Source of the DNA: Patescibacteria group bacterium
Lineage (GTDB): Bacteria > Patescibacteriota > UBA1384 > 2-12-FULL-50-11
Assembly: GCA_022843855.1 (NCBI GenBank)
Contig: JALHMV010000001.1
Coordinates: 66,780 to 109,143, forward strand
Direction: 5' to 3'
Length of the DNA: 42,364 nt
The notes under the pieces were generated by a model. That model saw only the letters and a list, made by a program, of their open reading frames with translations, was not told where the DNA came from and made no database searches. The translations under genes were made by a program, and so were the position numbers. Position 1 is the stretch's first letter. Each line of letters begins with the position of its first letter. Positions 1,122-7,907 of this stretch are shown here, piece by piece.

Positions 1122-1574
1122 TTATCCGTTCTTTTTGACCACTATCTTCTTAGTCTTTGGCTTAACTGGTTCGACCTTCGGCGCGGTCACCGTCAAGGTG
1201 CCGTTCTCGAGTTTGGCCTCAACCTTGTCTTCGGCGATCGGTGTGGCAAAGCGGATCGAACGAGTAAACTCGCTGTGTTGCCATTCCCGGCGAATCAAGC
1301 TCTTGCCGTTTTTCTCGATGTCCTCGTGCTTTTTGGTGCCAGTAACCGTCAGAGTGTCTTCGGTCATCTCGATCTGAAGGTCGTCGTCGCTGTACCCGGG
1401 GACTTGGAGCTCGATCTCGTACTGCTTCTCGGTTTCGTGAATATTCATCGCGCCGGCAACGGTGCCCAGCGCTCGCGACCAATCACCGCGACCGAAATTG
1501 CGGTTGATGAGCTCGCTCATCTCGTCTTGCATCCGATCGATCGCTTGAAACGGACTCCACGGAGCTAGTTGCAT
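1122..1574 (-). CDS. Possible internally initiated stand-alone Hsp20
   Basis: Internal ATG (1574-1572) preceded by AAAGGAGGTGAT (1592-1581 on minus strand) at 6-nt spacing. Confidence 0.6.
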   Translation of the reverse strand: MQLAPWSPFQAIDRMQDEMSELINRNFGRGDWSRALGTVAGAMNIHETEKQYEIELQVPGYSDDDLQIEMTEDTLTVTGTKKHEDIEKNGKSLIRREWQHSEFTRSIRFATPIAEDKVEAKLENGTLTVTAPKVEPVKPKTKKIVVKKNG

Positions 1575-1826
1575 TGTCTCATCACCTCCTTTCTGGGGCT
1601 CTTCAACACTTCTACTCGCTTGAATCTTGACGCCCTCAATCAACTCAGGCAGCGAACAGTTAAAAAATTCCATCAGGGCAATCAAGACCGGAGCGCTCGG
1701 CAGATATTCCCCGCGTTCAAGCGAGATAATCGACTGTCGAGAAACGTTGAGCGCTCGAGCCAGTTCTTCCTGGCTGAGCGATTGATTCTGTCGCAGCTGA
1801 CGGAGCATCAATCGGAACCGGGGCAT
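1122..1826 (-). CDS. XRE-type HTH domain fused in frame to Hsp20/alpha-crystallin domain
   Basis: N-terminus LRQNQSLSQEELARALNVSRQSIISLERGEYLPS is an XRE HTH; C-terminus has Hsp20 pattern (YEIELQVPGYSDDDLQIEMTEDTLTVTG...LENGTLTVTAPK). Listed ORF starts at 1865; MPRFRLML start at 1826 preferred. Confidence 0.85.
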   Translation of the reverse strand: MPRFRLMLRQLRQNQSLSQEELARALNVSRQSIISLERGEYLPSAPVLIALMEFFNCSLPELIEGVKIQASRSVEEPQKGGDETMQLAPWSPFQAIDRMQDEMSELINRNFGRGDWSRALGTVAGAMNIHETEKQYEIELQVPGYSDDDLQIEMTEDTLTVTGTKKHEDIEKNGKSLIRREWQHSEFTRSIRFATPIAEDKVEAKLENGTLTVTAPKVEPVKPKTKKIVVKKNG

Positions 1827-1838
1827 TGTACCTAATAA

Positions 1839-1856
1839 TGTAAAGGAAGCTTTACA
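1839..1856. promoter_or_regulatory. Candidate operator palindrome upstream of the XRE-Hsp20 gene
   Basis: TGTAAAG-GAAG-CTTTACA, perfect 7-bp arms, 12 bp upstream of the 1826 start. Confidence 0.55.
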
Positions 1857-1906
1857 ATACGTCAAGATTGCATCGTGCCAAAGTCTGGGTGTACGATGAC
1901 TTGGAT

Positions 1907-5952: not shown

Positions 5953-6381
5953 GGGCCTGCACTGGCTTCGACGGGAACATTGACATCGAAAACTGCAAGC
6001 GGACGCGCCTGCCTTAGAGCGCAAGACAAATACGTGCAAACGCATTTGAAACTGCCAAAGCTCGTGTCGCGAACTTGTTCGCTACCCCTGCTTTTGCAAC
6101 AGCAGTTGCCTAACAGCATTCTGCCGTCTTTCGGTCTGATTCTACTACGATCGTAAGGCGTCATATTTGTAGATGTGCCTCACGGCACCTGGCCTAGGAC
6201 TTGTTCTGCGCCAGTAGCAAGAAGTTACATCGCTCATTGCTGAAATAAAATTGATGTTGCGGTCGTGAGTGTTTTGAATCTTTTCTAGCTCACGCACTTA
6301 AGTCAAATAAAGTTTCTACGCTTGTAGACGTTTTCGGTCGTCGGTTTTCGGACAGGGGTTCAATTCCCCTCAGGTCCACCA
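5953..6381 (+). ncRNA. ssrA: tmRNA (one-piece), tag ORF 6036-6113
   Basis: gggcctg...ggcttcgacggg 5' end, T-arm ggttcaattcc, acceptor caggtcc + A + encoded CCA; tag reads ANAFETAKARVANLFATPAFATAVA*. Confidence 0.9.
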
Positions 6382-7907
6382 AATGCGTCTTGATCGTGTT
6401 GGATTGCAAAAATAGCCTGGTAGAAAGGGCTATTTTTGGTGTTCGAATAGCCAGGATAGCTCCACACCATTCCAGAGGGGAATATCGAACACAACAGGAC
6501 TCGTTTCTCCTCTAATTCACCTTCGTCGAAGGTTTTTGATAGGTCCGGAAACTTAGCAGAGATAAAATCAGTAATAGCCTTCAGGTTGTACTTCTCAACC
6601 ACCGAATCGCTTTTTGTGATTTGAACAATCTTAATCTTCTCCTCCAAGATCTTGTTTTGCTCCTTGAAAACATCGTCGGCGTACACCCCATTGAGATTCT
6701 TTTCGACCAACGCCTGACGCAATGTATAGAGTTTCTTTAGAGCCTCATCAGCTTCCTCGCGTCTCTTTTGCAAGCTACTAACGCGGTGGTAGTAAGTACG
6801 TCGAAGATAGGCATTAAGTAGCTCGATTGTTTGTGGTAATAAGGACATTGACCGCAGTTTCTTCATTGCCAACTCATAAATTGTTTCCGCTGGTATTGAG
6901 GTTCCTTCACAGCAACGGCCTTGGCAGAAGTAATACGCATATTTCTTGAGCTTTCCCTTGCTCCAAGCGGCCGTAAACGAACGACCACACCTGTCGCACT
7001 TTACCAGTCGACGGAGCGGAAATTGAGGATTATCAGGATTTCTTCTCCCAAGAGTCGGCCCAATATTGCGATTTCGACCATCGATTATTGCCTGAACTTT
7101 GTAAAAGAGTTCTTCGGTAATCATTTGCGGGTGTTGCCCCTGGACTTCCTCACCGTACCGTTTGGAAGTAACCTTGCCACAGTAGAATCTGTTTCGAAAG
7201 ATGCGAGCTAGAGTTTGCTGTCTGAGCATGTGTTCCTTGCCCCCGTGTCGCTGCTCACGTAGTCCTCTTGCGTTTAGATGATCGGCCATTGCTTGTAGGC
7301 TTTTGGTACCAGTTGCCATAAGCTCCCATGCTTCTTTCATGATCGTGAATTTTTCCGGATCTTTAACCGCGTAACCGTTTTGTGTCACGTAACCGAGAGG
7401 AACACTACCGGCTGGTAGTCCAGCTAGAAACCGTGCTCGCATTCCGTTGGTAGTTCGTTCGCTTCGTACGTCGTTATCCATTTGAGCAAAACCAGCCAGC
7501 ATTGTTTCAATAAACTTCTCCGTTGGGCTATTACCCGTTGGCTCACTGGCTGAAACTAACGCAATCTCCGCTTCGGCTAGTTTTTTCCGAATAGCTAAAT
7601 AATCAGCCGTCTGTCGAGAAAGACGATCAAGACGATATACGATAATAGCTCCGATATCTTTCTTGTTTTTTCGACAGTACTCTAGCATTTCAATTAGTCC
7701 CGGCCGCCCTTTGATCGTCTTAGCTGAACGCCCTTCTTCTCGAAAGACTTTTACGACCTCTAGTCCGCGCCGTTCTGCTTCCTTTCGACAAATTTCTTCC
7801 TGCGTGTCGAGTGAATAGTTGTCGACCTGTTCTTCGGTTGATACCCGAAGATAAATCACAGCCTTGTTAGACTTAATTTTCATCTTTCCCCCTGCCTGCT
7901 GATACAT
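6360..7907 (-). CDS. Large serine recombinase (integrase), integrated-form C-terminus
   Basis: KAVIYLRVSTEEQ, RLDRLSRQ, recombinase domain, Zn-ribbon CDRCGRSF...CQGRCC; last codons are antisense to ssrA 3' end. Confidence 0.95.
   Translation of the reverse strand: MYQQAGGKMKIKSNKAVIYLRVSTEEQVDNYSLDTQEEICRKEAERRGLEVVKVFREEGRSAKTIKGRPGLIEMLEYCRKNKKDIGAIIVYRLDRLSRQTADYLAIRKKLAEAEIALVSASEPTGNSPTEKFIETMLAGFAQMDNDVRSERTTNGMRARFLAGLPAGSVPLGYVTQNGYAVKDPEKFTIMKEAWELMATGTKSLQAMADHLNARGLREQRHGGKEHMLRQQTLARIFRNRFYCGKVTSKRYGEEVQGQHPQMITEELFYKVQAIIDGRNRNIGPTLGRRNPDNPQFPLRRLVKCDRCGRSFTAAWSKGKLKKYAYYFCQGRCCEGTSIPAETIYELAMKKLRSMSLLPQTIELLNAYLRRTYYHRVSSLQKRREEADEALKKLYTLRQALVEKNLNGVYADDVFKEQNKILEEKIKIVQITKSDSVVEKYNLKAITDFISAKFPDLSKTFDEGELEEKRVLLCSIFPSGMVWSYPGYSNTKNSPFYQAIFAIQHDQDAFGGPEGN
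6376..6382. repeat. Candidate attL core, CCACCAA
   Basis: Direct repeat of 28573-28579; within TCAGGTCCACCAA vs TCAAGGCCACCAA (11/13). Confidence 0.75.
6408..6437 (+). terminator. Element-encoded hairpin just downstream of ssrA
   Basis: aaaaatagcc-tggtagaaag-ggctattttt, perfect 10-bp stem ending in T-run. Confidence 0.65.

Follow-up and report, generated by a model that had tools for sequence, protein, structure and literature searches.

The XRE-Hsp20 fusion protein described here is probably the heat-shock repressor of the class Candidatus Berkelbacteria (Patescibacteria/CPR), with its Hsp20 domain acting as a sensor of misfolding and an internal start giving rise to free Hsp20. The gene lies in a window of 42,364 nucleotides (the whole stretch of DNA analysed) from a genome of 855 kb and approximately 95% completeness, whose named relatives belong to Candidatus Berkelbacteria. 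From the fusion itself, a conserved candidate operator, its predicted regulon, the loss of HrcA and CIRCE and a conserved internal Shine-Dalgarno (SD) sequence, all of them features of sequence, we infer direct DNA binding, repression, a sensing step and the formation of two products.

The gene is a single open frame of 234 codons and a stop, read on the minus strand (Table 1). As the original prediction had stated, this frame joins an XRE helix-turn-helix (HTH) to a full alpha-crystallin domain; Pfam matched HTH_3 to residues 8-62 with 60.1 bits (cut-off 23) and HSP20 to residues 129-230 with 70.3 bits (cut-off 20.8). Residues R30, Q31 and E37 of the XRE/HTH_3 domain were invariant across 28 homologues, and the closest solved HTH sequences were 2xiu and 1utx (CylR2 and similar). 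The AlphaFold2 (AF2) model consisted of a confident HTH, a disordered linker (pLDDT <50 at residues 66-87 and 89-91), a helix (residues 92-111) and a beta-rich crystallin domain. Small heat-shock proteins (sHSPs) were the top Foldseek matches in the PDB (E 1e-8), and the alignment showed IxI/V-type tails (KIVV / KIEV) together with a P-W-S-P-F N-terminal arm, the latter being absent from short fusion variants. The Pfam matches of the DNA-binding part were of the HTH_3 type and not of the MerR type that characterizes HspR, and neither the HrcA domain PF01628 nor the CtsR domain PF05848 was found among the Pfam matches of the protein.

Table 1. Features of the fusion gene and its upstream region (positions in the window)
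Feature	Position	Strand	Evidence
XRE-Hsp20 fusion gene, 234 aa, putative heat-shock repressor	1122..1826	-	open frame; Pfam; 41/55 class genomes
XRE/HTH_3 DNA-binding domain, residues 8-62	1641..1805	-	Pfam, alignment, AF2 pLDDT >90
Linker, residues 66-91, predicted disordered; holds internal SD and start	1554..1631	-	AF2
Alpha-crystallin (HSP20) domain, residues 129-230, C-terminal I-V-V (IxI/V-type) motif	1137..1442	-	Pfam, Foldseek
Internal Shine-Dalgarno AAAGGAGGTGAT	1581..1592	-	sequence; 16S 3' end; SD core in 29/38 fusions
Predicted free Hsp20, 150 aa, Met85 start	1122..1574	-	SD-ATG conservation; stand-alone hsp20 start elsewhere
Operator palindrome TGTAAAG-N4-CTTTACA	1839..1856		found before all 38 fusion genes inspected
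-35 box TTGACG	1860..1865	-	consensus scan; TTGACA-like, equal spacing in most homologues
-10 box TACATT, overlaps one operator arm; 10 nt before ATG	1837..1842	-	

An in-frame fusion of HTH and HSP20 was present in 41 of 55 genomes, these being all genomes of Candidatus Berkelbacteria in the collection, and the 28 aligned members were 27-72% identical to the window protein. Among 380 genomes from the phylum, the full-length fusion was confined to this class. It had been proposed as an alternative that two genes had merely lost a stop codon, and that homologous loci be searched for a stop between HTH and Hsp20. Within the class the homologues keep the frame open, which contradicts this alternative, while in other classes of the phylum hsp20 is indeed a separate gene. 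The separate gene would fit an artefact in which sequencing or assembly had deleted the stop codon, but the identical in-frame architecture of 41 independently assembled genomes makes such an error practically inconceivable. Two candidates for a fusion outside the class to which a contig profile scan had pointed, in L124 (Acidobacteria) and L161 (Saccharofermentans), proved to be separate genes or frames; the 28-row alignment was too diverse to serve as a profile, and the scan used a 7-row subset that reaches close relatives only. In G025 the fusion region is broken by a contig end. In the genomes G011 and G028 the HTH was retained, but of the Hsp20 domain no more than a remnant; an intact crystallin domain is therefore dispensable in some members. 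Remnant proteins of this type were observed in L139 (2480-2908), L216 and L217, that of L139 with an IxI-like tail; XRE proteins with such a remnant may function through docking to free Hsp20.

Just upstream of the fusion's ATG, a promoter TTGACG-N17-TACATT was recognized, with the palindrome lying between and overlapping its boxes. The palindrome was found upstream of 37 of the 38 fusion genes inspected by a pattern that admits common variants, and upstream of the remaining one (G016) with one end mismatch; TTGACA usually stood three bases ahead of it. The conserved palindrome is a candidate operator for the XRE domain of the fusion. Repression by an operator lying between the -35 and -10 boxes is established promoter logic, and a protein sited there would act as a repressor by blocking RNA polymerase. 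The ATG followed the -10 box by exactly 6 nt in 10 of the 38 fusion genes, and the fusion message is therefore probably leaderless, or nearly so, in these homologues. An SD was generally lacking at the fusion's own start, being nearly absent in the window gene. The strand, this scarcity and the upstream operator and promoter had not been part of the original prediction.

With at most one mismatch, six operator sites were found in the genome of the window, located before dnaK (at this site preceded by grpE), groES-groEL, clpP, clpC, an ABC transporter gene and the fusion gene; the clpC site carried one mismatch, and a further site at dnaJ carried two. Five perfect sites were thus seen in 855 kb, compared with approximately 0.003 expected from simple base odds. 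Throughout the class, 83 of 89 non-redundant sites inspected were located upstream of heat-shock genes, the ABC transporter gene or an hsp20/fusion gene (dnaK 24, groES 14, hsp20 or fusion 12, clpP 9, dnaJ 9, clpC 7, ABC transporter 5, grpE 3). No target was assigned to the remaining sites, some of which were at contig ends. In the sample, the composite promoter-operator pattern occurred in 29 of the 36 genomes of the class but in only 7 of 344 others, none of the latter being perfect. A heat-shock regulon of the TGTAAAG-N4-CTTTACA operator is strongly supported by these site counts. The idea of a chaperone bound to its own repressor agrees with the operator in the fusion's own promoter, but was too narrow, as the predicted control extends beyond autoregulation to the whole heat-shock regulon. 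A stand-alone hsp20 of genome G013 (L106, around 1501-2000) also carried the operator; separate hsp20 genes can therefore join the regulon. An ABC transporter ATPase gene with the operator was observed in five genomes (L035 1486-2352, L083, L094, L096, L101), followed in L035 by a membrane-protein gene, which suggests that an export system forms part of the heat-shock regulon.

All 41 fusion genomes contained operators, and 40 of them had at least one besides the fusion's own. The six class genomes without an operator (G008, G012, G014, G026, G031, G034) were all without the fusion as well; the random chance that all six fall among the 14 fusion-less of 55 genomes is about 1e-4, a figure to be taken as a guide only, as the genomes are related. 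HrcA was found in none of the 55 class genomes, but in six of six genomes from the phylum's other classes. Likewise, the CIRCE operator TTAGCACTC-N9-GAGTGCTAA was absent from the 55 class genomes at up to two mismatches and was found in five of the six genomes of other classes. The best explanation would be that the fusion and its operator have replaced HrcA/CIRCE in Candidatus Berkelbacteria, and we hold this explanation as a whole to be probable.

Operators in genomes where neither the fusion nor a fusion-type HTH was detected would suit another stand-alone XRE protein that owns the operator and the heat-shock genes, the fusion being one more target. There were five such genomes: G001, of the same genus and approximately 95% complete, had operators at clpP and clpC (L045, L089), and G033, G049, G052 and G053 were assemblies of 71-86% completeness. 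Small stand-alone XREs do occur in several genomes. Yet G033, G049, G052 and G053, four of the five, are incomplete, the genomes devoid of operators are without exception devoid of the fusion, and the position of the operator in the own promoter of every fusion gene inspected fits autoregulation, which together make an independent owner of the operator quite improbable. The near-complete genome G001 nevertheless counts against the fusion as repressor and is unexplained.

Six nucleotides (N6) separate AAAGGAGGTGAT (minus strand, 1592-1581) from an ATG (1574-1572). The 3' end of the 16S rRNA of the same genome, GGATCACCTCCT, is complementary to AAAGGAGGTGAT, so that the near-complete anti-SD complementarity claimed in the original prediction was confirmed exactly. 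A correctly spaced SD core preceded the corresponding Met in 29 of the 38 fusions inspected. Anti-SD duplex energies averaged -9.1 kcal/mol for the best internal ATGs, a value slightly favoured by taking the best of the linker-region ATGs in each gene, and -2.3 for other ATGs of the same genes. Because of this frequency and this difference in energy, the internal SD is not a product of chance. The codon phase of the SD core varied by species (phase 0 in 12, phase 2 in 16), and it is therefore the nucleotides, not the residues, that are conserved. Synonymous recoding usually weakened the core (Fisher chi2 130, 62 df, the sequences not being independent). The predicted products are a fusion of 234 aa (~26 kDa) and a free Hsp20 of 150 aa (~17 kDa).

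The internal start was missing in at least eight shorter fusions (G006, G007, G019, G022, G024, G035, G040, G044), and free Hsp20 from the fusion gene is therefore not essential. A separate hsp20 gene was also present in most class genomes. Judged by this comparison, the fusion is the constant part and the free product is common but dispensable. The proposed stress-feedback switch, composed of a DNA-binding sHSP fusion and free Hsp20, is well supported by the comparison of genomes, except that the internal start is not universal; the two products and sensing of the chaperone type are predictions. The fusion could also be the sole product, with the internal SD a functionless relic of an ancestral separate hsp20 gene, as the SD-ATG matches the ancestral hsp20 start and the members that lost it persist. 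This is unlikely: the SD-ATG is retained in 29 of 38 fusions although their proteins share only about 30-40% identity, its codon phase varies, it exceeds synonymous recodings in strength, and the fusion's own start is mostly without an SD.

For the fusion as heat-shock repressor, the following course of events is proposed. In the unstressed cell the fusion would occupy TGTAAAG-N4-CTTTACA between the -35 and -10 boxes, blocking RNA polymerase at its own promoter and at dnaK (grpE), dnaJ, groES-groEL, clpP and clpC. Upon heat or misfolding, unfolded proteins would occupy the Hsp20 part, or the oligomer state would shift, and the fusion would leave the DNA, allowing the chaperone and protease genes to be transcribed. 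In most species free Hsp20 would be made from the same transcript by way of the strong internal ribosome site, whereas the fusion, whose message is nearly leaderless and has no SD, is expected to be the minor product. Unfolded protein would then be removed by free Hsp20 together with the induced chaperones, restoring repression.

Small heat-shock protein domains serve dimerization and oligomerization. The Hsp20 part may accordingly do no more than bring the HTH units together as dimers or oligomers and join them with free Hsp20, in a fusion that is still the heat-shock repressor, with temperature acting on assembly (an intrinsic thermosensor) and not on client binding. The diverged proteins of G011 and G028, which retain the HTH and only the final portion of the crystallin domain (with an IxI-like tail in G028), would be compatible with such a role, and intrinsic thermosensing has been reported for Campylobacter HrcA in an excerpt of PMC8533110. 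However, the client-binding N-terminal arm (the P-W-S-P-F region) is kept in most fusions and in both predicted products, and sensing by assembly alone appears possible but distinctly less likely than sensing of misfolded protein by the Hsp20 domain.

The known systems closest in logic differ from the fusion in several respects. Like the fusion system, HrcA/CIRCE exerts negative control of groESL and dnaK with feedback via a chaperone, which for HrcA runs through GroEL. HrcA is defined by PF01628 and binds CIRCE, whereas the fusion combines HTH_3 with HSP20 and is paired with TGTAAAG-N4-CTTTACA; in the fusion, repressor and chaperone are covalently joined, and HrcA itself is missing from the class. 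HspR, the MerR-type heat-shock repressor of HspR/HAIR, uses DnaK as co-repressor and thus also couples a repressor to a chaperone, but has a different fold, a separate DnaK and a different operator. CtsR and ClgR regulate clp genes, as is predicted of the fusion for clpP/clpC, and ClgR shares the XRE fold; both are without an Hsp20 domain, and ClgR is described as an activator. CylR2 and similar small stand-alone XRE repressors have, among solved structures, the HTH sequence nearest to that of the fusion, and no chaperone domain. An interplay of heat-shock repressors and chaperones in H. pylori is described in an excerpt of PMC6032397. In gamma-proteobacteria the small heat-shock protein IbpA represses its own expression, as stated in excerpted text of PMC10474464, a likeness to the fusion; unlike the latter, it lacks an HTH domain, and its target is the mRNA 5'-UTR instead of DNA. 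By analogy, the logic of the fusion resembles that of HrcA-GroEL, HspR-DnaK and the self-control of IbpA, and differs in the covalent join, the DNA-binding family and the operator.

Nothing relevant on an XRE-Hsp20 regulator, on heat-shock control in Patescibacteria/Berkelbacteria or on the operator sequence was found in the open-licence literature, and novelty is claimed within the genome collections and the open-licence literature searched. Little is known of stress sensing in candidate-phylum bacteria with minimal genomes; here a whole class has dropped HrcA/CIRCE, and a one-protein regulator is predicted, with a regulon and an operator that are readable from sequence. What emerges is a model of control by chaperone titration, simple and testable, in which one molecule is both sensor and repressor; it might be of use as a compact misfolding-responsive switch. 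We lean, with some reserve, towards the wider view that this covalent sensor-repressor is a heat-shock master regulator, that dual initiation (leaderless and internal SD) on one transcript yields both it and free chaperone, and that it represents a third route beside HrcA-GroEL and HspR-DnaK and the ancestral switch of this CPR class.

Elsewhere in the phylum, outside the class, the related hsp20 stands alone and starts at the alignment column of the fusion's internal start. The fusion is therefore a true gene fusion that occurred once or a few times, and the internal SD therefore represents the ancestral hsp20 ribosome site, which was kept; by this comparison, the locus would be a clear example of a fused gene retaining an ancestral ribosome site to make two proteins. 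In a tree of the alpha-crystallin domain all 38 fusions fell on one side of a branch with weak support (53/79), which is weakly consistent with a single fusion event. In several genomes outside the class, hsp20 followed hrcA-grpE or grpE (L205-L209, L212, L214), and a CIRCE-like element was found at hsp20 in L213 and L215 of other classes. The order hrcA-grpE-hsp20, observed in L207, L209, L212 and L214, is apparently the ancestral arrangement. A few kb from the fusion, the window also encodes a 515-aa protein resembling a large serine recombinase (6360-7907, minus strand), which suggests an integrated element adjoining the fusion gene.
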